A stretch of 64,000 nt of DNA from Bacteroidota bacterium (lineage in GTDB: Bacteria > Bacteroidota > Bacteroidia > B-17B0 > Aurantibacillaceae): assembly GCA_025362395.1 (NCBI GenBank), contig JANYGK010000035.1, positions 1-64,000 of the forward strand, written 5' to 3'. The notes under the pieces are model-generated. The model was given only the letters and a program-made list of their open reading frames with translations. It had not been told where the DNA came from and ran no database searches. Positions 10,538 to 58,966 of this stretch are shown piece after piece. Position 1 is the stretch's first letter; each line of letters opens with the position of its first letter. Position numbers and translations under genes: made by a program.

Positions 10538-11083
10538 ATGATGAAGAAAGTAGAATTATTACAGGTTCCTGACGAATTGGTCATGAACAAAATTTATTTG
10601 ATCAGGGACCAAAAGGTAATGCTGGATAGAGACTTGGCGGAATTGTATGGTGTTGAAACTAAACGGTTAAAGGAAGCTGTAAAAAGAAATCTGAATCGTT
10701 TTCCCGAAGATTTCATGTTTGAATTAACAGAACTTGAATTGAAAAATTGGAGGACGCAATTTGCGTCCTCCAATTCGGCTAAGATGGGTTTGCGCTATAA
10801 GCCCTTTTGTTTTACGGAGCAGGGAGTTGCTATGTTATCAAGTGTTTTAAACAGTGAAAAGGCAATTACCGTAAACATTCAAATTATCCGGATTTTTACA
10901 CGCATCAGAAAAATGCTTACAGATAATACGGAGATTCGATGGATCATTGAAGAGCTAAGAACAAAAACAGAAAATAATACTAAAAACATTGAAGTCGTTT
11001 TTCAGTATTTAGACGAGCTGTTAGATAAAAAAGAAAACACAAAACTAAAGGAGCAGATCGGGTATAAGATGTCTAAAAAATAA
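10538..11083 (+). CDS. ORF6N-domain DNA-binding protein
   Basis: A 181-residue protein with the ORF6N domain (about 8-100: IYLIRDQKVMLDRDLAELYGVETKRLKEAVKRN, then the FTEQGVAML segment). The domain is common in phage regulators and in stand-alone genes of Bacteroidota and is thought to bind DNA. A charged C-terminal helix region (about 120-181) ends the protein. It stands alone between the permease and the convergent transglutaminase-like gene. A 29-base perfect palindrome lies within the coding sequence (10746-10774). Regulatory targets are unknown. Confidence 0.88.
   Translation: MMKKVELLQVPDELVMNKIYLIRDQKVMLDRDLAELYGVETKRLKEAVKRNLNRFPEDFMFELTELELKNWRTQFASSNSAKMGLRYKPFCFTEQGVAMLSSVLNSEKAITVNIQIIRIFTRIRKMLTDNTEIRWIIEELRTKTENNTKNIEVVFQYLDELLDKKENTKLKEQIGYKMSKK
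10746..10774. repeat. perfect 14-bp inverted repeat inside the ORF6N gene
   Basis: Bases 10746-10759 (attggaggacgcaa) are the exact reverse complement of 10761-10774, with one central base. In the reading frame it encodes NWRTQFASSN, between the two conserved blocks of the ORF6N domain. In RNA it would form a very stable hairpin with almost no loop. Confidence 0.9.
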
Positions 11084-13310: not shown

Positions 13311-16300
13311 TTAAGCTTCTACTTCTGTAACAATACTTGGGAAGATCCTTACGTTGTTATTTTCTTCTCTTCTGAATTGGTAGGTGAATTTATAATGCGC
13401 CTCCAAGCCCGATTTATTTGGCAGACCGTTGATCATCATAATATTCCTGTTTTTTGCAAAACGTAATAACTCACGTAAGTAGTGAGCGGAGATTTGTCCC
13501 ACTTCATCAATAATGCAATGCACTTTAAAATCAGTGCTGCCGCGGTGCGACGACTCTTTAATGAATACGTGCAACAAGGTAATGTAAATAATAGCTTTCA
13601 CTAAAATATCTGTACCTGTACTGCCGATGCTGTCAATTTTATGTGTCCAGCCCGTTTCGTTCATTCCTTCTTTAATATTAAAACGTAACTCGAACAAATC
13701 CTGTAATCTGATCTCTTCCTGTTCCTGTTCTTTAATGGCGGTGCGAAGCTGGTCTAATAATTTAACGGCACGTGTACTGATCTCTTTATTTTTATGAGTG
13801 GCGAAATCCGTGTTAAATAAACCTTCGTTGTATACCAATCCATTTTCTTCACGAAATTCCTGGATACGCTTTAATAATTTGTAAACTTTATTGTCAGAAT
13901 CTTCTAAACGAATTTTAATGAACTCAATTAACTTAGATTCTTCAAATTCCGCTTTTTTGAAATCCTCCGCAATCAAAGTAATGATGTGCTGAATTTTATC
14001 TTTTTGTCCGCTCAACTCTTTTACTTTAGTTGCAATACTGTCTGTTACCAAGCCAATTTGTGTAGCAGTTTCAGCAATCGATAATTCAATTTTATTTTCA
14101 TTTATAAATGAACGTAAGTTCTGCGCAAAGCGTTCGTATTCGCCTTGTGTAGCATCATTGCGAATAATAAAGTTAAAGTGATTATCGAGTCTGAATTTAC
14201 CCGCAAACTCATTTACGTAACGCTGGAACGCGCCATACTCTTCATTAAAATGCGAATCATTCTTTAAGAGTTGTGTACACAAGTCCATCACACTATAATT
14301 GGTTTTCTTAGGTTCTGCTCTTTCAATAATGTCAGCGTATTTATTAAATACCGGTGTTTCACGGAAATTTTTTGTAAAATAATTGATCCCGTTATTAAAC
14401 TCGATCAGTTCTTCTTCCAGTGTGCGTTTTTGCTTATTCAGCTCCATGCGGCGCACATTATATTTACGGGCAATCTCTTCTAACTCCGTGCTTAAATCAT
14501 TTGCCGATTTTACATACTCTTCTTTCTTTTGAATTAAGTCAGGTAATTTATCAAAGATCTCACGCTTGTCTTTTAAATAATCGCTTACAATTTGTGAGTA
14601 CTGATCAATTTCTTTTAAAGCTTCCTGTAATTCTTTAATACGCGTATCAATTTTTTTGATCTCTTTACTGTCAACTCCTTTTTCTTTAAAGTTCGATTCT
14701 TTTTCGTTGCTTAAAGACGTTTCTTTTTCTTCGTATTCTTTAACCTGGTTTTTCTTTTCAACTTCCAACTCGCTGATCTCTGTTTCCTGCCTGTTTTTAA
14801 GATCCGCTAAACGCTCGTCGTTAAACGTTTTCAGCTTATCTAATTGGTTATTGAAATCGTTGAGGATGTTATTTTTATTTTTATTTAAAATAGCTAACTC
14901 TTCTTCAATAAAATTAATTTTTTGTTTGTTTCCGGTTAACGAGTCTTCTACTTCTGAGCTTGCACGTTGTTTCCAGTCTTCAATTTCAAGAATTAGTTTT
15001 TTCTCGCGTTTTTCTGCAAGCTCCAAAGAGTAATTCAATACCTTCAAATCTTCTTTTAATTCGCCTAATTGCTTTCCGAATTTATCGGCAGCAACCATTT
15101 TCTCTTCGTTATTAGCGGTTTGAAATTGATTTAAAGACTCCTCCAGGTCACGAATTAATGCCAGGCGTTCATTTTTCTCAAACTGGTATTCTTCAATGGT
15201 TTTAGAAACTACATTTACGCCGTCTAGTTTTAAATTTAACCCGTAAAATGAAACACCTTTATCTTCTGATTTAGTAGGATTTAAATCGGTACGGAATAAT
15301 AATTCTTCGTTAACAACCTTGCCAATCGTGGTATGCCAGTCTTTTACGTTTTTCTCTAAATACCCGTATAGCGCATCATGCTGAACATTTAATTTTTCTT
15401 CAATCGTTTTAATTTCCGTCTTCAAACGGATAATTTCATTATTGGTTTTTTGAATCTGGTTAGATAAAGATCCTTTTAATCTTTGTTCTAAATTTTCCCA
15501 TTCTTTTTGATTGGTTTGAACCAGGTTCGATTTAATAGCTCTCTCCGATTTATTTTTATAATTGATCGCTCTTAATTCTGCCAATTCAGTTTCCTGCGCT
15601 TTTATTTCCGTTTCATAAAAACGAGTGTTACGAATTACTTTTTCCTCCGCTTTTAATTCATTGAATTCAATTTGTTTTGCTGTTACTTCCGCGTTGAGGT
15701 TTACTAACGAATCTTCACGTTTTTGTTTTAACTCAGCATCTTTTTTACTGAATTCATTTTTTTGAAGTAACTGTAATTCATTATAATGATTAAAGATCTC
15801 GCCTGTCTTTGAATTGATCTTATTAATATAAGCCGTTTTATCGTTACGTAATTGCTCAATTAATGAGGAATATTTCATCTCAATGTTCTGTACATTCGAT
15901 GTTAAGGATTCATATTCACGACGTGCAATATTAAAATCAACTTGTAGTTTCTCACGCTCAGCATTTTTTTCAACAGCCTGCTCAATATTTTTTTCTTTGT
16001 ATTCTTTTAGTTTTTTATTGGCTTCACGAATCGTTCTGTCATAGTAACCGATCTCTTCACGAACGTCTTTTTGCTTTTCTTCTAAATTTATTTTTTGATT
16101 CTCGTTCGCATCCGCTAATTTCTCAATTTCTTCTTCTTTTTCTTTGGATGCTTTTATAACTGTTTCATTTTGTGTCTCGGCATAACGCAAGCTGCTGCCA
16201 AGCTTATCAGCCATTTCCATTTGGGCGCCTTTAAGCATGTGCACTTGGTCGTACTTTTTATCAATGAACTCAATTAACTGCTGAGACTCTTTTTTTAAAT

Positions 16301-16994
16301 ACGTTTCAATGTCCGAATATTTTTCATTGAACTGGCGTAACTGGCGCTCTACCTGCTCCAGCTTAATAGAACTGTTTTCGGTTGTTAATGAGTTCGCAAT
16401 AAAATCTTTAATAAAGCGACTGTCAATACTGCTTTTAGAGCTTAAGAAAACGTTGGTGATTGATTTAGGAATGTTCTGATATTTCTCATTCCCTTTAAGG
16501 ATGTGGAATTTAGTTAATGATTTATCTGTTTCCGTTCCGTACAATACATTACGGTAACGCTCAAACGTATCAATCTGGTTAGAAATAAAAATTCCTCTTT
16601 TTTCGAATCCTGAAATAACTTCTTTAATTTTAAGAGCCTCATCATTTTCATTGAAAAAATAATCAGGGTTAAATGCGGCATCCACAAAACGAAACACCAG
16701 TTTATTATGACGGTATACAATCACAAAAAAGGGTTTGTCTTCCGTGCTGATCTCATAAATTAAATATGAGTTCTCATAACGGAAATAATGTTCTTCAAAT
16801 GGCTTTTGCGACGCTGAAATCCCTAAACCACGACTGTTAGCGCTGTAAAAGAATAATATCGCACGTTGCAAAGAGGTTTTACCAAAGTTATTAGTTCCTA
16901 CGAAACACGTATTCCCGCTTAATTCAATATCTGCGTACTTAATGTTCGCAATATTGATCTGTACAATTCTATTTAATATTCTTACGTTTTCCAT
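13311..16994 (-). CDS. mksB: MukB/MksB-like condensin ATPase
   Basis: A 1227-residue SMC-like ATPase. The N-terminal head has the Walker A motif GTNNFGKTS (33-41). A very long charged coiled coil runs from about 230 to 1000, broken near its middle by a hinge-like region. The C-terminal head has the signature STGTDILVKAI (from about 1125) and Walker B CIIDE with D1163 and E1164, followed by IMMINGLPN. This end pattern matches MukB more than SMC or Rad50. With MksF and MksE it should form a ring that entraps or extrudes DNA. It is the last gene of a four-gene operon. No JetD/MksG nuclease gene is adjacent, so a chromosome-organising role is more likely than Wadjet defence. Confidence 0.85.
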   Translation of the reverse strand: MENVRILNRIVQINIANIKYADIELSGNTCFVGTNNFGKTSLQRAILFFYSANSRGLGISASQKPFEEHYFRYENSYLIYEISTEDKPFFVIVYRHNKLVFRFVDAAFNPDYFFNENDEALKIKEVISGFEKRGIFISNQIDTFERYRNVLYGTETDKSLTKFHILKGNEKYQNIPKSITNVFLSSKSSIDSRFIKDFIANSLTTENSSIKLEQVERQLRQFNEKYSDIETYLKKESQQLIEFIDKKYDQVHMLKGAQMEMADKLGSSLRYAETQNETVIKASKEKEEEIEKLADANENQKINLEEKQKDVREEIGYYDRTIREANKKLKEYKEKNIEQAVEKNAEREKLQVDFNIARREYESLTSNVQNIEMKYSSLIEQLRNDKTAYINKINSKTGEIFNHYNELQLLQKNEFSKKDAELKQKREDSLVNLNAEVTAKQIEFNELKAEEKVIRNTRFYETEIKAQETELAELRAINYKNKSERAIKSNLVQTNQKEWENLEQRLKGSLSNQIQKTNNEIIRLKTEIKTIEEKLNVQHDALYGYLEKNVKDWHTTIGKVVNEELLFRTDLNPTKSEDKGVSFYGLNLKLDGVNVVSKTIEEYQFEKNERLALIRDLEESLNQFQTANNEEKMVAADKFGKQLGELKEDLKVLNYSLELAEKREKKLILEIEDWKQRASSEVEDSLTGNKQKINFIEEELAILNKNKNNILNDFNNQLDKLKTFNDERLADLKNRQETEISELEVEKKNQVKEYEEKETSLSNEKESNFKEKGVDSKEIKKIDTRIKELQEALKEIDQYSQIVSDYLKDKREIFDKLPDLIQKKEEYVKSANDLSTELEEIARKYNVRRMELNKQKRTLEEELIEFNNGINYFTKNFRETPVFNKYADIIERAEPKKTNYSVMDLCTQLLKNDSHFNEEYGAFQRYVNEFAGKFRLDNHFNFIIRNDATQGEYERFAQNLRSFINENKIELSIAETATQIGLVTDSIATKVKELSGQKDKIQHIITLIAEDFKKAEFEESKLIEFIKIRLEDSDNKVYKLLKRIQEFREENGLVYNEGLFNTDFATHKNKEISTRAVKLLDQLRTAIKEQEQEEIRLQDLFELRFNIKEGMNETGWTHKIDSIGSTGTDILVKAIIYITLLHVFIKESSHRGSTDFKVHCIIDEVGQISAHYLRELLRFAKNRNIMMINGLPNKSGLEAHYKFTYQFRREENNNVRIFPSIVTEVEA

Positions 16995-17044
16995 TTCTAT
17001 TTATTTTTGCCGTTAAAGCGGCTCTTCATGTGTTATTGAATCTA

Positions 17045-18055
17045 TTAATAATCGTATAAGCTGCCGTAAAATTTAGCAACGACTTTAGGATCATTCATGT
17101 TTTGTCCTTTTAAGTCGGTTGGCTTCGGCACCATAACGGGGTATAAGCCTATTGATTTTCTTTTAATATTTGCCGGAGCAAATTCTTTAGGAGTTAGTTT
17201 TTCGTAACCTAACACAGGCTCGTAAAACTCAACGGGAAAGCCGTTATATAAATTTCTTCTGTCTATTACCTGTGCGTAAAAAGAAGGAGAAATTTGCCCG
17301 TTTACCAAGGCTTTAAAGAGTATATCATTCAAACGCTCATTTTTTTTATCGTAATCATAATTCAATAAAATGTTACGGGCAATATCACAAGCGCCTTTAT
17401 CAACCAGTTTCATATTAGGAAACCCGTATTTTTGAATATTGGCTAAAAGTGTAACGGCTGTGATTGAATCTGCTTTCATTTTTTCTTTTACCAAACGGTA
17501 TTTAGACATGTATTCCGGTAACGTTTTATTGCATTTGGGGTTTTTCATACATGCCGTGCAATATTCTGTTGCTAATTTATAAGTACCGGTATTGTATTTT
17601 TTATTGGCGTCTATAGTCGCGTAAAGCTGCGCTTCCCAAACATAATTTCTTCCCGCCTCTTTTGTTTTGTCCCATTGGGCAATATTAGCGTTGTATTCTT
17701 TTTTAGTGTTTTGATTATAAAATACAATAGCGTCTTTTTTTGAACTGTCTACATCGTACCCATTGATAATTGCTTTTTCTAAATAATGTAATCCTTTATA
17801 TTCTTCTTTAATTTTTAAGGCGCACAACGTTGCTTTAAAATAATGAGAAGGATTTATAACGCCTGCATAACTTGTAAAAGCAATGTCATATTTAGCATAA
17901 GCCTGTAATAATGAATCGTTTTTGTACATTCTTTCCGCTGAAGCGACTGCTGTATGAAAATTAATAAAATCTTCGGACGGAGTAGAGTATTTGGCCTGTG
18001 CATTTACACAATTTGCTGTTGCAATAGCGAGTATAAGTAATAATGGTTTTATCAT
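17045..18055 (-). CDS. secreted protein of unknown function inside the mks operon
   Basis: A 336-residue protein with a clear signal peptide (MIKPLLLILAIATANCVNAQ). The first half looks helical and repeat-like, resembling TPR (YKNDSLLQAYAKYDIAF, ALKIKEEYKGLHYLEKAI). The C-terminal part has the order KYGFPNMKLVD ... ACDIARNILLNYD ... ISPSFYAQVIDRRNLYNG, which reminds me of the DUF6624 family (from memory, not searched). It lies between mksE (58 bases upstream) and mksB (50 bases downstream), all on the minus strand. A secreted product is unexpected in an operon for a cytoplasmic DNA machine. Confidence 0.75.
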   Translation of the reverse strand: MIKPLLLILAIATANCVNAQAKYSTPSEDFINFHTAVASAERMYKNDSLLQAYAKYDIAFTSYAGVINPSHYFKATLCALKIKEEYKGLHYLEKAIINGYDVDSSKKDAIVFYNQNTKKEYNANIAQWDKTKEAGRNYVWEAQLYATIDANKKYNTGTYKLATEYCTACMKNPKCNKTLPEYMSKYRLVKEKMKADSITAVTLLANIQKYGFPNMKLVDKGACDIARNILLNYDYDKKNERLNDILFKALVNGQISPSFYAQVIDRRNLYNGFPVEFYEPVLGYEKLTPKEFAPANIKRKSIGLYPVMVPKPTDLKGQNMNDPKVVAKFYGSLYDY

Positions 18056-18113
18056 ATAATTATCTTTTATGTGTTTTAAATACTGATGTGTTATAGTGCA
18101 GATAAAAGAGAGC

Positions 18114-18722
18114 TTAGTTATAAATTAATCCTTGTGCGTCGTCATTGCTTAATCCGCCTTCTTCATATATAGCAACAGAGTTAATAATGTCCAACAGATA
18201 AGTGTACGAATCCAGTACTTTATAAGATTCTGTTTTTTCGTCTTCCAGTTCTAAAAAAGAATCACGGCTCATCAAATCACAAATTTCACGTACTTTATTA
18301 TGTAAGGTTTCAGAACGGTACAACGGAATTTTTTGAAGCTTTTGTTTTAAGCGCACATTGGCGTTACACTCTTCCGCAATTTCACCAGGGCGAAACCGGC
18401 TTCCAATGCCGATCTTATTATCCATACTCGCAAACAGATCTATAATATCAATGTAGCGTTCAAAGCGCTCCAGTTTTTTTTCTATCTCGCTGTTCGGTTC
18501 ACTTAATTTAGAAAAATAAAAGAAGTTATTCCCTCTTTCAATATTGTAGCGAATCACATTAAAGTAAGCCTGAAGCCTGTCAAAATTTTCAGGATTATTA
18601 ATCACATCATATAAACGATTCATACCATCCCTGCTGCCGTTGCTTGATATAAAAGCTCCGCGAGCCATCACGGCAAAAATATCGTGGGTTTGTTTCGGTA
18701 AATTAAAATTATATTCTTCCAT
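18114..18722 (-). CDS. mksE: MksE-like condensin subunit
   Basis: A 202-residue, helix-rich acidic protein whose size and position fit MksE/JetB, the winged-helix (KITE) subunit that bridges kleisin and ATPase heads. The segment DIFAVMARGAFISSNG near the start, and YFNVIRYNIERGNNFFYFS (about 53-71) with its helix-wing pattern, resemble MksE proteins. It has no signal peptide or membrane helix. It is preceded by a 169-base gap after mksF containing a degenerate leader repeat (18731-18762). Sequence support alone is moderate; gene order makes the call. Confidence 0.75.
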   Translation of the reverse strand: MEEYNFNLPKQTHDIFAVMARGAFISSNGSRDGMNRLYDVINNPENFDRLQAYFNVIRYNIERGNNFFYFSKLSEPNSEIEKKLERFERYIDIIDLFASMDNKIGIGSRFRPGEIAEECNANVRLKQKLQKIPLYRSETLHNKVREICDLMSRDSFLELEDEKTESYKVLDSYTYLLDIINSVAIYEEGGLSNDDAQGLIYN

Positions 18723-18730
18723 TAGTTTTT

Positions 18731-18762
18731 ATTTTTACCACATAGGCACATAGAAAACAGAG
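18731..18762 (-). repeat. degenerate leader repeat before mksE
   Basis: On the minus strand CTATGTG-C-CTATGTGG then TAAAAAT, ending 8 bases before the mksE ATG. It belongs with the related elements at 25866, 26711, 26818, 28199 and 39081. Confidence 0.6.
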
Positions 18763-18891
18763 TTTGTGCCGACCGGTTTTATTTTAAAATTTATTTTTAT
18801 TCTCAATGCGTTTCTGCCTTGCACTTGAATGGCATGAGTTTAACAATCTTCTATCCCTTTTGTCTCTTAGATCTTTTCTCTCTCTTCAATC

Positions 18892-20133
18892 TTATTTCTC
18901 CTTTACTTTCTTCGCTTTCTCCGTAACCGGCAGTATCAACGTATAGCCCAGTCGTTTTTTAATATTCGTAACAGCCTCTACATAATCATGGTATTGCAAA
19001 CGGTATTTAAAATCAAGTTGTGTCTGGTATTCCATCGCAATTTCAACGAATAAGGATAAACGCTCTTCAAACGTAACAGTACCAATGGCTTTCGGGAATT
19101 TGTATTCAATCAAATATTCAAATAAATTATGTTTTGTCTGCGTTAAAAAACGCTCTACTAATTTTTCTGTATCTAATTTAATTTGTTGCTCTAAACCTTT
19201 GTCCTTAAAGTTGCCTGCCATTTTATCAGCAAGGCCGCGCACCATAAGGCGTGTAATTTTATATTTTTCAGAAATGCGTTTGCATAACACATGCCCGTCA
19301 TCGCTGTATAAAAAGTCGATCGGTATTTTTGTCTTCGGCGTTTTATGTCCGTTGTGCTTAAGCGTATTAATGCTCGCTACTATTTCCCTGAAGTTCGTTT
19401 TAAAATGCAGCGTTCCGTGGTCTTTTACTTCTTTTAAGCGCTGCGCTTTTTTGTAAACATCTAACTGGAACTGGATCTTATTGATGAAATCCGTAATATC
19501 GGTTTGGATCTCAATTAAAAAATCCAAATTCTCTATCAGGCTTGATTTCAGGGCTGATACAATGCCGAACAATTCACTGTCGTTAGTAATATTAAACAGG
19601 CTTCTTGTTTCATCAACAATGTCTGTTGTTTTTTTAATGAATTCAATAATCGTATCACGTTTCTCGCGGTAGTCTTCCAGCTTTTGTAATTTAATGCGGT
19701 AGTTACTTTCGTTCTTGTAAGTATCATCTACATTTTTTTGAAGCTTAATAATTTCACGTGTTAATGTAGAATTGATCCGTTTTAAATATTTTTTAATGCT
19801 TCGTAAAAAGCGCATTTCACGGGCTTCCTGGTAAAATGCAATATGGCGTTTCAGCTCATTGATATAATCATTGATAAAGCCCGGCGTTACTTCACCAATT
19901 TCCATAAAGTCTTCAAACATGGCCACCACAGAGTCATTCAGACTCACAACGTTTTCATACTCAAATAAAATATCTAAGGAAATTAATTTTTTATATTGCT
20001 CTTCCGTAATATCATCACGGCCGAATAATTCATTCACAGTTATTTGGTCGCGCTGCCCGAATAACAATTCTACTATACCACGGTTGTGATATAGGTTTGA
20101 TAGTAAATCTTTTACATTAACCTGTAAACTCAT
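18892..20133 (-). CDS. mksF: MksF-like kleisin subunit
   Basis: A 413-residue protein predicted to be the kleisin of the condensin. The N-terminal winged-helix-like part (about 1-95) includes VNELFGRDDITEEQYKKLISLDILFEY. A long helical middle (about 100-250, KYLKRINSTLTREIIKLQKNVD) has coiled-coil character. The C-terminal part (about 300-400) would bind the ATPase head. Size and first position in the operon match MksF/JetA. ATG at 20133 (MSLQVNVKDLL) is preferred over a GTG at 20154. The divergent 283-base gap to the M43 protease must hold its promoter; I see no clear -7 box there for this strand. Confidence 0.78.
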   Translation of the reverse strand: MSLQVNVKDLLSNLYHNRGIVELLFGQRDQITVNELFGRDDITEEQYKKLISLDILFEYENVVSLNDSVVAMFEDFMEIGEVTPGFINDYINELKRHIAFYQEAREMRFLRSIKKYLKRINSTLTREIIKLQKNVDDTYKNESNYRIKLQKLEDYREKRDTIIEFIKKTTDIVDETRSLFNITNDSELFGIVSALKSSLIENLDFLIEIQTDITDFINKIQFQLDVYKKAQRLKEVKDHGTLHFKTNFREIVASINTLKHNGHKTPKTKIPIDFLYSDDGHVLCKRISEKYKITRLMVRGLADKMAGNFKDKGLEQQIKLDTEKLVERFLTQTKHNLFEYLIEYKFPKAIGTVTFEERLSLFVEIAMEYQTQLDFKYRLQYHDYVEAVTNIKKRLGYTLILPVTEKAKKVKEK

Positions 20134-20376
20134 TAATATAGTTCTGTTTAACACATAAAAATACGAAGGCTTTAGGGCGTACTAAAGTCGGGTTATTAAC
20201 AAAATCAGGAGTAATTCACAAAATAAGTCTTTGTTTTTTGTAAGAGCTTGAAAAACAGCTTTTTTACTGTTAATTAGGAGTGGATAAGGAATTTAAGTTT
20301 CGCTGAAAATTTAAGATTACGATTAAACTTCCTATTATATGACACTTATGCAATAAACGCATTTCAGGTTTATTTA

Positions 20377-51196: not shown

Positions 51197-54100
51197 ATGA
51201 AAAGAATATTACTAACTGGTCTTTGTTCCATCATGCTATTTGTTGGAATAAAGGCGCAAACAACAGTTACCATTACGGCTACCGGCACTGCCGGTTCCTT
51301 TAATTCTGGCTCAGTAAATGCCGGAGGGACGAAAAATGATGGGGATATGATTACAATTAACTCAGGCGCAAATGCGGGTTGGGCAAAATTTGATCTTTCA
51401 TCTTTGCCTGCAAGTGCAGTAGTTACAGCGGCATCATGTTTATTTACCACCTACTCGTCAATAACTTCAGGGGCTTCAAATAACCTTTACGGGTTTATAG
51501 GAAATCCGGCAGGAATAGCCGGTGCTGCATTGTATACCAATTGTACATCAGGCACAACGTTTAATAATACAACCTGGACTGCTAATGCATTAAATACTAA
51601 AGTGCTAAATGCTGCCGGTATAAGTTTTATAGCAAGTAATATTACTAGTACACAACTATGTATAGGTTATGCAAGAGCATCAACAAATACATATAATATT
51701 TATGGCTATGGTGCGGCAGCAGCTTCCCTGCCTAAAATTTTAATTACATATACTGTTCCTCCCGCATGCTCCGGAACTCCAACCTCCGGAACAGCTACTG
51801 CTTCCAGTACTGTTTTTTGTACTCCCAGAACTATTAATTTAAACTTAGCCGGATCAACGTCCGCTACAGGTCTAACTTATCAATGGTTATCTTCGCCTAC
51901 CGGAGTATCTTACTCTAGTATATCATCAGCTACAAATATTGCCTACAGCCCGATAGTAAGTTCAACAACTTATTTTCAATGTGTGGTATCTTGTGGTGTT
52001 AGCTCTTCTACATCTACTCCTGTAATGATTAATTACGGGCCAGCACCAACGGGAGGTACTTCTGTTGCCTCTCAAACTTATATTTGTGCTTCTCCAAATG
52101 TTGCGCTTAGCACAACAGGTTCTTCTACAGTATCAGGTACTACTTATCAATGGCAATCATCACCTAATGGTTCTACATGGACTTCGATCCCATCGCAAAC
52201 ATTATCTACTGCCAATCCAACTATATCTACTACAACTTATTACCAAAATGTTTTAACATGTGGTACCGGTACGGCGGCATCTTCATCGATTATGGTTACG
52301 GTTGCTCCAACAGTAACTAATTCTATATCCTACTCTGAAGGTTTTGAAGGGATTACGGCTAACGATCAATTACCAAATTGTTCATGGGCAGCAAGCAGTT
52401 TAGGATCTATTTGTAAAACGTATACTGCTGCTACAGGTTCATATAACCAAATTCCTAAAACAGGAAGTAAATTTGCGTCATTCCGTTATGGAACGGCAGC
52501 TACCGGAGATTATTTTTACACAAATGGTCTTCAATTAAATGCAGGTATGACTTATTCAGCTTCTGCAGGTTATATTACGGATGGTCTGACAGGATGGTCA
52601 GAGTTTTCTTTACTAGTAGGAACGTCTCAATCAACAACCGGTTTATCTAACATTGTTTCAGCAACAGGTGCTCTTACAAATACTGTGTATGTAAATGTAT
52701 CAAATACATTTACGGTTGCTACTTCAGGCATTTATTATATAGCAGTTAAATGCATTGGAAATTCAAGCCCATGGTATTTAACGTTTGACGATATTAATGT
52801 TATTGCTGTGCCTAATCCGCCGGTATTGAATGCTAACTCTATTAATTTAATTGGTAATCAATGTATCGCTGCCGCACGCACAGTAACAGCTAACATTACT
52901 CCGGGAACAAATCCTTTAACATCTGTTGTATTAAGTTATAGCTTTAACGGAGTAGCGCAGCCAACTATTGCGCTTACAGGTGGCAACACAACAGCTACTT
53001 CAAACTGGACAGGAACGATTCCGGTTGCAAATCCTGTTAACGCAAATGTAATGTGGACTATTACTGCAAATGATGTAACATATGCAAGAACATTAGCCGG
53101 AACATCTTATAACGATGAGCCATTGTTAGGTTCTATAGTAACAGCAACATCTTCTTCAAATCCACTTTGTGCGGGTTCAAGTACAACGTTATCCCCAATA
53201 TTCAGTTCTTCTAACCCTGCCAACTATGCTTTACCTCCCGCGGTGACGTATCCTACTTCAGATGAAGATATCGGAAATGTATTATTTGGAACACTTAATA
53301 ATAGTTCGGCAATAAACGGCTTAACCGGAACCATAGGTACGGCATCAGGCGTAGCCGGAAGTTATTCTGATTTTACGACGTTCGGTCCTTATAATTTTAC
53401 GGCAGGCAATACATACAGTATGAGCTTAACATCTTTACAGGCAGCTACCGCTTACAGTAATGCTTTTGGGGTATATATTGATTATAACAGGAATGGTATA
53501 TATACAGACGCCGGTGAAGCGGTATATGTTTCTACTGTTACAACTTCCGGAACACATACGGAAACAGTAAGTATTACTATTCCTGCTACTGCCAAAAACG
53601 GATTAACCCATATGCGTGTTATTTGTAATGAAGGCTTGGTTACCGGACCAACAATGCCTGTTTATTATGGAGAATATGAAGAATATATGTTAAACGTTTC
53701 AAGCGCTAATAATGGAGGGGGTGCAATGCCAACCTATACTGCTTATGCTTGGAGTAACGGAACAACTATTGCAACTACCAGTACTACTGTTCAGTCTCCC
53801 GCAGTTAATACTACTTACAGTATCACAGCAACAGATGCAAATGGTTGTACAATCACTTCCGCTCCTTTAAATGTTACAGTAACTCCTTTACCTGCGGCAC
53901 CAACCGTTACTAATTCATCACAGTGCGGTAATGGCGTTCCAACAGCTATGGTTGGCGGCGGAAGTTTATACCATTGGTATGCAACACCAACTTCAACTAC
54001 AGTATTACAATCAAGCTCAAGCCAGTTTTATACAGTATCAATTAATACAACTACTACGTTTTATGTAGCGGCGGCTGTTGGTACGTGTGAAAGTTCAAGA

Positions 54101-57100
54101 ACTGCTTTAACAGCTAATGTTACACAGCCTGATGCTGTAACAGCTACAACAAGCGCGGCAAATATTTGTCCTGCAGGTTCAGTAACGTTAACAGCGGTTC
54201 AGTCAGGAACCGTAAACCCTTATACATTTTCATGGGTAGCAGTGCCTGTTGCAGGAAGCGGACTTTCTTCTTCAGTTCCGGGGAAAACACTTAACGTTAC
54301 TCCAACTGCCCCGGGAACTTATATTTATAGTGTAACGGCCACAGACGGTATTTGTACTACAACTTCTTCAGTAAGTGTTACCTCAAATAATCCTCCTGTA
54401 ATTACCGCAACTGCAAACCCGACAGTAATCTGTTCAGGCGCAAATGTGAATTTAAACGCAACAACTCCCGTTATCGCTTCAGGTTCCCTTACAGTGGGAG
54501 CCGGCAGCAGCACATCAAGTTTTGGCGGATCTCCATTTTATCACAGTTGGGGAGGAACTAAAGTGCAATACATTTATACGGCAGCGGAGTTAAACGCTTT
54601 GGGATTAAGTGCCGGTAATATTACATCCTTAGGGTTAAATGTTACAGTTGTAGGCATACCTTATGAAGGATTTACCATTAACGCTGGCACAACTACCCAA
54701 TCTGCTTTTGCAACTGCCAGTACTATTAACGGGCTAACACAAGTTTATTTAGGAACAGGTACCAATAACAGCTATCTGCCTACTGTAGGCATCAACACAT
54801 TTAATTTCTCTACTCCTATTAACTGGAATGGTACGGATAATGTGGTTATATCTATCTGCTGGAGTAACGCAACAACTGGAGGAGCTTCTTCTACCGTTAC
54901 CTGGGATAATTACGCAACTAATGTCGGCATGTATATCTACGCTGATAGCCAAACACCAAGTACAGTATGTAGTGCAACTACTACAATTCCCGCAAGCGGA
55001 GGTAGTTCTACAACAACCGGCCGGCCTCAAACTTATATTAACGGGCAAATACAAACATCAGGTGCAGGTCCTTTAACATGGCAATGGAACCCCGGCGCTA
55101 TAAATAGTAATACTACAACAGTTAACCCGGTAAATACAGGTACAGCAGCGGCTACAAAAATTTATACTATTACAGGTACAAATACATTAACCACATGTTC
55201 AAATACTGCTACTGTCAGCATATTGGTAAATCCTTTACCGGCTACACCTGTTGCGGTTAACGCAACACAGTGTGGTTTAGCAATACCAACAGCATCCGTT
55301 AGCGGTGGTACTTCTTATAAATGGTATGCAACTCCAACTTCAACAACTGTTTTACAGGCAGGGGCGAGTGCTAATTTTACAACGGCGATTAATGCAACTA
55401 CAACTTGGTATGTTTCTGCTTTTAACGGAACATGCGAAAGTGTAAGGGCTATGTTAACCGAATCGGTAACAATTCCTGATGGCGTTACTGCGGCATCCAC
55501 TTCAACTGCTATTTGCCCGGGCAGTACATTTACATTAACAGCAACAAAAACAGGTACGGTTAACACATATATTTATACATGGACGGCTACTCCTGCAGCA
55601 GGCAGCGGAATACCAACTTCTGTAACAGGTGCAACAACGGCTGTTACACCAACAACAAGCGGAACACGTGCATATTTGGTTACAGCGGTTGACGGTGTTT
55701 GTACAACAACCGCTTCTGTTAATGTTACATTAAATGCACCTCCGAATATTACTAATGCATTGGCTACGCCATCTATGGTTTGTTCAGGTGGAACTGTTGC
55801 ACTTAGTGCTATTTCAATTAACGCGGTTTCTTCTACAACCACTGTAGGTTCAGGAGCAAGTACAAGTGGTTCAGGCGGTTCTCCATTCTATCACGGTTGG
55901 GGCGGAGCAAAAGTGCAGTATATATACACAGCAGCAGAATTAGCAGCACAAGGATTAACTATTGGTAATATTACAAGCATAGGATTAAATGTAACAGCAG
56001 TTGGTCAGGCTTACAATGGATTTGCTATTAACGCAGGTACAACCAGTCAATCTTCATTTGTCGCTGCAAATACCATAAATGGATTAACACAGGTTTATTT
56101 GGGTGCAGGAGCAGGTAATAGTTATTTACCAACTGTAGGAATTAATACATTTAACTTTTCAACACCGATTTACTGGAATGGAACAGACAATGTTGTTATT
56201 TCTATCTGTTGGAGTAATGCTACCACAGGTGGTATTTCTTCTACTGTTCAGTGGGATAATTATTCAGGAAATGTTGGAATGTATATTTATTCTGATAGTC
56301 AAACACCTAGTACAGTTTGTAGTGCTACAACAACAATCCCTGCCAGTGGTGGTAGTTCAACTACTACAGGAAGGCCTTTAACTTATATCTCAGGTCAGAT
56401 AGGAACGAATGTAAGTAGTTCTATTAACTTTGTATGGAATCCGGGAGCTATTGCTACTAATACAGCCGTTGTAACTCCGATTAACACAGGAACTACAGCT
56501 GTAGCCCAGATATATACTGTAACAGCAACTAATACTGTAACAGGTTGTACAAATACAGCCACTACAAGTGTACTTGTTAATCCAATTCCTGTTACACCTA
56601 CTGCTTTTAACTCATTACAGTGCGGGGTTGCTATTCCAACAGCGTCTGTTACAGGTGGTACTTCTTATAAATGGTATGCTACTCCAACTGCTACAAATGC
56701 AATTCAAGCAGGAACAAGTCAAACGTACACTTCATCCATCAGTACAACCACTAATTTTTATGTAACGTCGTTTAACGGGAACTGTGAAAGTCCAAGAGTG
56801 ACATTAACAGCAAGTGTTACCGTACCTGATGCAGTTACTGCCTCTGTAGGAACAGCATCCATTTGCCCTAATACATCTGTAACATTAACAGCTGTTAAAA
56901 CAGGCACTGCTAATACATATGTATATACATGGACAGGCTCTCCTGTAGCGGGAAGCGGTATCCCTACTACTGTAACAGGTGCTTCAGTTACTATTACGCC
57001 TACATTATCAGGTACTTTTGTGTATACGGTTACTGCTGTTGACGCTGCTTGTACTGCTGTAAATACAACTACATTAATTGTGTTCTCTGCATTAACAACT

Positions 57101-58966
57101 CCGCCGGTAACTTCTTCATTACCAAACCCAATTTGTATCGGTAGCAGTGCAACGTTATCGGCCACGTTTGGAAATACGATTAACCCGGTTTACGCAGCTC
57201 CTCCTACAGTTTTTAATCCAACAAATGATGAAGATTTTGGTAATATCTCTTTTGGACCATTAGCAAACACAACAACTACCAATTCATTAATTGGTACTAT
57301 TGGAACAGCGTCAGGTACTGCCGGTGATTATTCTGACTTTACAGCTTTTGGGCCTTATACTTACATTAAAGGAAATACATATACGTTAACTGTAGGTTCT
57401 ATTACTACAGGTACCTCTTATAGCAATGCATTTGGAGTATACATTGATTATAACAGAAATGGTGTGTTTACGGATGCCGGTGAAGCGGTATATATATCGT
57501 CAGCTACTGTTAGCGGCCCTCATACAGAAACCACAACAGTAACGATACCGGCTTCTGCTTCTACAGGTGTTACAAGAATGAGAGTTATATCAAACGAAGG
57601 TTTAGTTACCGGTCCGGCAATGGCAGTTTATTATGGAGAATTTGAAGAGTATACATTAAATCTTCAACCTAATATTACTTATAACTGGACAAATGGCGTT
57701 ACTTCCGTAGGAACAACAAATCCTTTAACTGTAACTCCTGCAAGCAATACAACGTACAGCTTTACCGCAACAGATGGTAATGGATGTACAATCAACTCTA
57801 CTGCTGTAACGGTTACAGTAAATCCTTTACCTACAATAAATGCTGTTGCATCAAACACAACATCATGTGCGGCAAGTACAGTTACATTAACAGCAAGCGG
57901 CGCAACCACCTATTCATGGGTGCCTGCGGGCGGTACTTCTACAGTTGCTGTAGTAAGTCCTACTACAAGCACTGTTTATACCTTAACAGGTACAGCTTTA
58001 GGTTGTAGCTCTACTAAAACAGTAGGCATTAATGTTACACCTACGCCAACGGTTATTGCTTCAGCTTCGCCAAGCGTAATTTGTGCAGGGGCAACAGTGA
58101 GTTTAACGGCAAGCGGAGCAACTACTTACTCCTGGTCTCCTATTGGTGTAACTACTGCTACGGCAACGGCTACTCCTACTATTAATACTACTTACAGTAT
58201 AGTGGGTACCGCTTTAGGTTGTACAACCACAAAAACAGTTAATGTAACGGTTAACCATGTTCCTACTTTAACGGTAAGCGCATCAAGTTCTACGTTATGT
58301 ACTGCGGGGGCAACGGCTACGTTAATTGCAACAGGAACGTCTACAGCTTATGCTTGGAGCACAGGTGCAATTACAAACAGCACTGCAGTAACGCCAAGTG
58401 TAACATCAACCTATACACTTACAGGCACTAACAGCTGCGGTACTTCAACAGCAAGCACCATAGTAAATGTGGGTACAATACCAACATTATCGGCTGTAAC
58501 TTCCGCTACCATCATTTGTAAAGGTAATGCTGCGGTATTAACTGTTAGCGGAACAGCTACAAGTTATGCTTGGAGCACGGGTGCAATTACCACAAGCATC
58601 TCTGTTACGCCAACTATTACTACGACTTATTCGGTAACGGGTAACTCGGTATGCGGTGCGGTAACAGCGACAGTAGTGCAAAATGTATCGCCTTGTACGG
58701 GTATTGAATCCATCACAACATCAGATGATATCGGTATCTATCCTAACCCTGCAACGGATCATGTAACTATTTCGATCTCTTCTTACTTAGCTTCTAATAA
58801 CACACATGTGGAAATTACAGACGCTTTAGGCAGATTGATAATGAAAGAAAACTTAAATACGGATATGACTACCATCCGACTTAACAAACTGGAAGACGGT
58901 GTTTACTTCTTTAAAGTAATTACCAACAACCAAGTGGTGAAGATTGGTAAGGTGGTTAAACAGTAA
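51197..58966 (+). CDS. giant modular T9SS surface protein
   Basis: A 2589-residue exported protein. After a signal peptide (1-20) comes a DNRLRE-like domain (about 21-190). Ig-like modules follow, then a jellyroll-like domain ending in FDDINV (about 375-535). A first GEVED-type domain (about 681-834) contains VYIDYNRNGIYTDAGEAVY. Two and a partial third tandem units follow (about 894-2000), each with a WYATPT Ig-like module, a PVAGSG Ig-like module and, in the first two, a GGSPFYH-WGG domain (about 1097-1284 and 1544-1731). A second GEVED domain (about 1999-2154), further Ig-like repeats and a T9SS type A sorting domain (about 2510-2589) end it. Probable role: adhesion. Confidence 0.9.
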   Translation: MKRILLTGLCSIMLFVGIKAQTTVTITATGTAGSFNSGSVNAGGTKNDGDMITINSGANAGWAKFDLSSLPASAVVTAASCLFTTYSSITSGASNNLYGFIGNPAGIAGAALYTNCTSGTTFNNTTWTANALNTKVLNAAGISFIASNITSTQLCIGYARASTNTYNIYGYGAAAASLPKILITYTVPPACSGTPTSGTATASSTVFCTPRTINLNLAGSTSATGLTYQWLSSPTGVSYSSISSATNIAYSPIVSSTTYFQCVVSCGVSSSTSTPVMINYGPAPTGGTSVASQTYICASPNVALSTTGSSTVSGTTYQWQSSPNGSTWTSIPSQTLSTANPTISTTTYYQNVLTCGTGTAASSSIMVTVAPTVTNSISYSEGFEGITANDQLPNCSWAASSLGSICKTYTAATGSYNQIPKTGSKFASFRYGTAATGDYFYTNGLQLNAGMTYSASAGYITDGLTGWSEFSLLVGTSQSTTGLSNIVSATGALTNTVYVNVSNTFTVATSGIYYIAVKCIGNSSPWYLTFDDINVIAVPNPPVLNANSINLIGNQCIAAARTVTANITPGTNPLTSVVLSYSFNGVAQPTIALTGGNTTATSNWTGTIPVANPVNANVMWTITANDVTYARTLAGTSYNDEPLLGSIVTATSSSNPLCAGSSTTLSPIFSSSNPANYALPPAVTYPTSDEDIGNVLFGTLNNSSAINGLTGTIGTASGVAGSYSDFTTFGPYNFTAGNTYSMSLTSLQAATAYSNAFGVYIDYNRNGIYTDAGEAVYVSTVTTSGTHTETVSITIPATAKNGLTHMRVICNEGLVTGPTMPVYYGEYEEYMLNVSSANNGGGAMPTYTAYAWSNGTTIATTSTTVQSPAVNTTYSITATDANGCTITSAPLNVTVTPLPAAPTVTNSSQCGNGVPTAMVGGGSLYHWYATPTSTTVLQSSSSQFYTVSINTTTTFYVAAAVGTCESSRTALTANVTQPDAVTATTSAANICPAGSVTLTAVQSGTVNPYTFSWVAVPVAGSGLSSSVPGKTLNVTPTAPGTYIYSVTATDGICTTTSSVSVTSNNPPVITATANPTVICSGANVNLNATTPVIASGSLTVGAGSSTSSFGGSPFYHSWGGTKVQYIYTAAELNALGLSAGNITSLGLNVTVVGIPYEGFTINAGTTTQSAFATASTINGLTQVYLGTGTNNSYLPTVGINTFNFSTPINWNGTDNVVISICWSNATTGGASSTVTWDNYATNVGMYIYADSQTPSTVCSATTTIPASGGSSTTTGRPQTYINGQIQTSGAGPLTWQWNPGAINSNTTTVNPVNTGTAAATKIYTITGTNTLTTCSNTATVSILVNPLPATPVAVNATQCGLAIPTASVSGGTSYKWYATPTSTTVLQAGASANFTTAINATTTWYVSAFNGTCESVRAMLTESVTIPDGVTAASTSTAICPGSTFTLTATKTGTVNTYIYTWTATPAAGSGIPTSVTGATTAVTPTTSGTRAYLVTAVDGVCTTTASVNVTLNAPPNITNALATPSMVCSGGTVALSAISINAVSSTTTVGSGASTSGSGGSPFYHGWGGAKVQYIYTAAELAAQGLTIGNITSIGLNVTAVGQAYNGFAINAGTTSQSSFVAANTINGLTQVYLGAGAGNSYLPTVGINTFNFSTPIYWNGTDNVVISICWSNATTGGISSTVQWDNYSGNVGMYIYSDSQTPSTVCSATTTIPASGGSSTTTGRPLTYISGQIGTNVSSSINFVWNPGAIATNTAVVTPINTGTTAVAQIYTVTATNTVTGCTNTATTSVLVNPIPVTPTAFNSLQCGVAIPTASVTGGTSYKWYATPTATNAIQAGTSQTYTSSISTTTNFYVTSFNGNCESPRVTLTASVTVPDAVTASVGTASICPNTSVTLTAVKTGTANTYVYTWTGSPVAGSGIPTTVTGASVTITPTLSGTFVYTVTAVDAACTAVNTTTLIVFSALTTPPVTSSLPNPICIGSSATLSATFGNTINPVYAAPPTVFNPTNDEDFGNISFGPLANTTTTNSLIGTIGTASGTAGDYSDFTAFGPYTYIKGNTYTLTVGSITTGTSYSNAFGVYIDYNRNGVFTDAGEAVYISSATVSGPHTETTTVTIPASASTGVTRMRVISNEGLVTGPAMAVYYGEFEEYTLNLQPNITYNWTNGVTSVGTTNPLTVTPASNTTYSFTATDGNGCTINSTAVTVTVNPLPTINAVASNTTSCAASTVTLTASGATTYSWVPAGGTSTVAVVSPTTSTVYTLTGTALGCSSTKTVGINVTPTPTVIASASPSVICAGATVSLTASGATTYSWSPIGVTTATATATPTINTTYSIVGTALGCTTTKTVNVTVNHVPTLTVSASSSTLCTAGATATLIATGTSTAYAWSTGAITNSTAVTPSVTSTYTLTGTNSCGTSTASTIVNVGTIPTLSAVTSATIICKGNAAVLTVSGTATSYAWSTGAITTSISVTPTITTTYSVTGNSVCGAVTATVVQNVSPCTGIESITTSDDIGIYPNPATDHVTISISSYLASNNTHVEITDALGRLIMKENLNTDMTTIRLNKLEDGVYFFKVITNNQVVKIGKVVKQ
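53880..57190 (+). repeat. tandem long modules within the adhesin gene
   Basis: Units of about 1340-1360 bases start near 53880, 55221 and 56581. The first two have the same order (WYATPT Ig-like, PVAGSG Ig-like, then the GGSPFYH domain). The third keeps the first two modules and then passes into the GEVED domain. The proteins are very similar, whereas many third codon positions differ between units. Confidence 0.75.

Follow-up and report, generated by a model that had tools for sequence, protein, structure and literature searches.

On the minus strand of the window (the whole stretch of DNA analysed, 64,000 nucleotides of contig JANYGK010000035.1 in the Bacteroidota assembly GCA_025362395.1) lies an operon encoding an SMC/MukB-type ATPase (MksB), the KITE subunit MksE, a predicted MksF-like kleisin and one further protein. 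The genes, and the ATPase motifs read in the MksB sequence, are:

18892..20133, minus strand: predicted MksF-like kleisin, 413 aa, in the ORF 18892-20154; fold matches JetA/MukF
18114..18722, minus strand: MksE, KITE subunit, 202 aa; Pfam PF21980
17045..18055, minus strand: 336-aa protein with an apparent signal peptide, between MksE and MksB; no family
13311..16994, minus strand: MksB, SMC/MukB-type ATPase, 1227 aa; Pfam PF12128 (DUF3584)
16872..16898, minus strand: Walker A of MksB, GTNNFGKTS, residues 33-41
13599..13625, minus strand: ABC signature of MksB, GSTGTDILV, residues 1124-1132
13503..13517, minus strand: Walker B of MksB, CIIDE, residues 1160-1164

An earlier reading of the letters (the sequence-only reading) had proposed three same-strand genes with the order and sizes of MksF, MksE and MksB, and these ORFs were confirmed on the minus strand. 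The start of MksF was placed at residue 8 of its ORF, the ATG at 20133, from conservation in 48 relatives, and this is where that reading had ended the operon. The Walker A, STG-DILV signature and CIIDE Walker B that it had named are all present in MksB, and Pfam agrees with the flanks it had described: one neighbouring gene is transglutaminase-like (PF01841), and the opposite flank holds a divergent M43 metalloprotease gene whose product has a Por secretion tail. It had omitted the 336-aa ORF inside the operon. This protein had no family match in domain searches and was found in a subclade only, where it is 52–76% identical; it is probably not part of the condensin complex. Promoter-like sites were no more frequent than in shuffled sequences. 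Near the operon, an ORF6N-domain gene (10538-11083) scored 218 bits against PADLOC PDC-S05, a candidate defence family, and positions 51197-58966 of the window encode a secreted 2589-aa protein that contains GEVED and Ig-like domains as well as a Por secretion-tail domain.

MksE matched the curated Pfam family of that name with an E-value of 2.1e-29 and 103 bits, against a cut-off of 27, and at the level of sequence its identity is certain, as had been proposed. MksB matched DUF3584 across residues 22-1194 (3.7e-62). These two scores, together with the MksF-MksE-MksB (F-E-B) order in related loci, indicate that the operon pattern is not due to chance. Residues G33, T34, G38 and K39 of the MksB Walker A are invariant in 42 relatives, as are the key residues of the signature and Walker B, and E. 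coli MukB carries STGEAIGTGMSILV where MksB has its signature. PDB sequence searches returned generic coiled coils only for MksB and weak unrelated matches only for MksE. When the MksB profile was aligned with E. coli MukB using hhalign no significant probability was obtained, though the signature and Walker B were in register. In the structural model of MksB (residues 1-1200, mean pLDDT 63), the heads are poor and of low confidence, while the arms run from about 215-536 and 600-933 (approximately 320–330 residues each) with the hinge or apex at about 537-600. Its best fold matches in the PDB were JetC of Wadjet-II (3.6e-10) and MukB (1.5e-7), with Rad50 at 0.03.

MksF matched no Pfam family. 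PDB sequence searches found generic coiled coils only, and hhalign of the MksF profile against E. coli MukF and one JetA gave no significant probability. The model (mean pLDDT 71.5) resembles a winged helix in its N-terminal part, continues with long helices and a linker modelled with low confidence, and has helix and strand in its C-terminal part. The best Foldseek match in the PDB was JetA of E. coli Wadjet (8as8_E, 7.7e-4), followed by JetA of P. aeruginosa PA14 (8dk2) and MukF (9gm7, 1t98, 3rpu and 3euh), all with low TM-scores that ordinary helical bundles equalled in a second look. The MukF matches span more of the model, for example residues 4-253 against 3rpu. The top-ranking folds agree with the earlier assignment of MksF, and no sequence link to MukF or JetA was found; it is by gene position and fold ranking only that the protein is predicted to be the kleisin.

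The sequence-only reading had also stressed that no nuclease gene adjoins the operon. Profile searches of the window genome (4.08 Mb, 99% complete) found no JetD_C or JetD/MksG, no DUF7281 and no ScpA, and no JetD-, DUF7281- or related nuclease was present in any of 73 related core loci. The genome search it had proposed was run for ScpA, SMC_N and JetD, and each came out absent or not SMC-length; the 16 SMC_N matches all sit in frames no longer than 639 aa, none of them SMC-length, and the three read among the best were RecF, RecN and a PtuA-like ATPase.

The 73 related loci are nearly all from Bacteroidetes MAGs, and their MksB is 66–95% identical to that of the window. The comparison of loci that had been suggested showed that the F-E-B order is kept in every locus long enough to reveal it, with the exception of L044, while the flanking genes change. 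In L044 (8001-11684) MksB is 73% identical and MksE and MksF do not adjoin it, so the operon seems to be split. The dN values of MksB, MksE and MksF were 0.03–0.08, whereas the same pairs of genomes gave 0.10–0.33 for the flanking genes, and the three genes thus evolve several-fold slower than most of their neighbours; dN was compared in place of dN/dS because dS was saturated.

The order was covered by 65 genomes from 10 genera. Window-type MksE was found at full score, a uniform 99–111 bits, in 60 of these. Each of the remaining five assemblies consists of about 200 contigs or more, completeness is at most 95% in four of them, and one (G145) holds a truncated copy. ScpA was found in none of the 65, JetD in seven and DUF7281 in two. 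JetD adjoins a second, different MksE copy in six genomes (G099, G129, G139, G146, G153 and G177), and in G127 the JetD-linked copy is the only MksE found. The core operon and a separate defence-type operon occur together in several members of the order, for example G177, G157 and G099.

Across the class, 119 Bacteroidia genomes were searched with the Pfam MksE and ScpA models and the operons were read for grouping. MksE was found in 38, ScpA in 23 and neither in 62, which means that ScpA can be lost without a replacement that these searches would detect. The MksE operons fall into four groups. Group A is the window type. Group B has a compact MksB of about 890 aa and the gene order B-F-E, group C has a MukB-N-like MksB followed in part of the group by a 305–326-aa gene with an E...DxD motif, and group W is Wadjet I with DUF3375 and JetD. 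Nuclease-free MksBEF occurs in 28 genomes from three clades, several of which (including G052, G067, G084 and G110) were placed by genus or profile match. None of the 28 has ScpA, compared with 4 of the 10 other genomes with MksE (hypergeometric P of 0.001 by genome and about 0.05 by family, values that are indicative only because the genomes are related), and at family level the exclusion is weak.

The compact nuclease-free operon, MksB (about 890 aa)-MksF-MksE, was seen in another order (L121-L124 and L137-L139) and is present in 14 of the 119 genomes, none with ScpA. A profile of this MksB clade matched no genome beyond those in which MksE had already been found, and DUF3584 was too insensitive for tracing other MksB clades. 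In one ScpA-bearing genome (G075; L118:7440-11511) the operon looks degenerate: MksE was found with a MksB lacking Walker A, and an ORF of only 115 aa lies upstream at the expected place of MksF.

The nearest relatives outside the window clade are operons with the arrangement F(396)-E(189)-B(about 1225)-DUF7281(285), seen complete in G030, G177 and G145; in G157 MksB is split into two ORFs (L145:3299-6981). Identity between the window clade and the G030 operon is 29% for MksB, 36% for MksE and 26% for MksF. In seven loci a gene for a DUF7281 protein of 284–297 aa directly follows MksB:

L117:10911-11765
L143:6910-7767
L144:11049-11903
L151:8651-9529
L153:8699-9556
L154:8711-9565
L159:9666-10559

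Besides its DUF7281 match, this fourth gene has weak similarity to JetD_C and the PADLOC JetD. The family alignment retains a GDFD motif and, within GIEN/VENP, the E, and this E...DxD pattern appears Toprim-like; the four-gene operon is thus, on motif and gene content, an apparent Wadjet-like system, although its MksF and MksE are not recognised by PADLOC. Distribution is patchy. Similar operons were found in records of Phocaeicola massiliensis and of a Persicobacter plasmid, and a gene for a WYL-domain regulator is upstream of the operon in L144. In G177 a DUF7281 operon (L143) coexists with the slow core operon (L146, 91–92% identical to the window). In phylogenetic trees the window clade is apart from the nuclease-bearing clade (support 99/100, MksB heads). 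An operon of Parabacteroides distasonis with no fourth gene is sister to the nuclease-bearing operon of P. massiliensis (support 100/99 for MksF and 96/100 for MksB), an indication that such operons do lose the nuclease.

A different gene, encoding 305–326 aa, follows the MukB-like MksB in L119 (4735-5652), L147 (3856-4782), L127 (10670-11623) and L128 (3308-4288). The products contain E and DxD motifs, have at best weak similarity to JetD_C or JetD3, and are a candidate for another divergent nuclease partner. Four records (L151, L152, L159 and L160) are labelled as plasmids of Phocaeicola, Parabacteroides and Bacteroides strains TSDC17.2; L152 carries the housekeeping genes gcvT, glutamine synthetase III and NAD synthase and may therefore be a chromosome fragment. 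Relatives in records from these three genera had raised the idea that Bacteroides uses the window complex. We do not advance it, as both Phocaeicola operons carry DUF7281 and the Bacteroides ihuae control had no Pfam MksE.

We consider it likely that this bacterium and its order rely on nuclease-free MksBEF as their main, and probably their only, SMC-type organiser of the chromosome, noting that most of the relatives are MAGs and that the MksB head model is of low confidence. The operon is near-universal and conserved (60 of 65 genomes, low dN) and is found with neither a nuclease nor ScpA, which argues for a housekeeping role rather than plasmid defence and supports the three-subunit chromosomal condensin that the sequence-only reading had preferred. 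In the proposed mechanism, the kleisin MksF, to which MksE dimers are bound, would bridge MksB dimers made up of ATPase heads and long arms of coiled coil, and ATP cycling would power the entrapment of chromosomal DNA and the extrusion of loops. We infer this assembly, the loop extrusion and the chromosomal role by analogy with MukBEF and Pseudomonas MksBEF (PMC7485682; PMC10586767). As no JetD/MksG-like nuclease was found in the genome, the complex would be expected to compact and segregate DNA and leave plasmids uncut.

A divergent Wadjet that restricts plasmids by means of a nuclease from a different family, its gene lying elsewhere, would account for the four-gene DUF7281/JetD-like operons being the nearest outside relatives and for DUF3584 being common to MksB and JetC. 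This is nevertheless very unlikely, as the genome contains no JetD_C or DUF7281, no nuclease adjoins the related loci, and the window operon is near-universal and slow, unlike the patchy nuclease operons (seven JetD and two DUF7281 of 65). Moreover, G177, G157 and G099 own a separate defence-type operon besides the core one. The defence variant that had been offered as an alternative consequently fits the window copy poorly, though DUF7281 variants exist nearby. It also seems unlikely that MksBEF is an accessory condensin with a minor or conditional role, and that an SMC-like protein that has escaped recognition, or ParABS with nucleoid-associated proteins and nothing else, organises the chromosome. 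Retention across the order, the very low dN of all three genes and a genome without another SMC-length SMC_N match speak against this, while in its favour many Bacteroidia have no recognised condensin in these searches and a Hi-C study reports none of the known condensins for two Bacteroidota from the gut, one of which has a secondary diagonal (PMC10197239).

A Rad50/SbcC-type repair ATPase next to two unrelated genes would share the P-loop and coiled coil of MksB. A head nearer to Rad50/SbcC than to MukB, the outcome against which the sequence-only reading had set its own, was not what was found in the fold search with the MksB model, where JetC and MukB both rank far above Rad50 (4e-10 for JetC versus 3e-2). 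MksB has three cysteines and no CxxC, and thus no Rad50 zinc hook. The missing hook and a partner, MksE, that is a curated Pfam match largely refute this reading, which we regard as extremely improbable. Returning to the chromosomal condensin, we suggest tentatively that nuclease-free Mks/Muk complexes replaced SMC-ScpAB as core condensin in several separate Bacteroidia lineages, and that the window complex may have lost the nuclease of, or share an ancestor with, a plasmid-cutting Wadjet of the DUF7281 type, and so have passed from defence to chromosome organisation.

If the main reading is true, the order would offer a clean setting in nature for studying MksBEF as a condensin that works alone. 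It would bear on which condensin Bacteroidota use, given that none was reported in the two gut species (PMC10197239), and on the origin of nuclease-free condensins from plasmid-defence complexes, which has been suggested (PMC10586767). Reviews name Smc-ScpAB or MukBEF as the bacterial condensins (PMC10586767), and MksBEF is described as sporadic, typically alongside one or the other (PMC7485682). A description of MksBEF as the core condensin of Bacteroidota was not found in the open-access papers searched.

Compared with known systems, the DUF7281 operons are nearest in sequence outside the window clade and share its F-E-B order, but they are patchy and have a Toprim-like fourth gene where the window operon has no nuclease. 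Wadjet (JetABCD/MksBEFG) shares the kleisin-KITE-SMC gene order and a DUF3584 SMC protein, and its JetA and JetC are the best fold matches of the MksF and MksB models. It differs in that the window genome has no JetD/MksG and the window kleisin is not DUF3375; PADLOC and Pfam Wadjet models gave no JetA match in the window and only marginal matches to JetC (0.005) and JetB (0.02). The F-E-B order, the STG...ILV signature and Walker B are shared with Enterobacterales MukBEF, and MukF is among the best fold matches of the predicted kleisin, whereas MukB is 1486 aa long and the window MksB 1227 aa. The window proteins did not match the Pfam MukB N-terminal, MukE or MukF models, and another Bacteroidia clade does match MukB N. 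The MksBEF of P. aeruginosa has been shown to organise the chromosome and to segregate it (PMC7485682). Although it accompanies SMC-ScpAB there and the window genome has no ScpA, the MksBEF of strain PAO1 has, by its published description, the same arrangement as the window operon, mksF-mksE-mksB with no nuclease.
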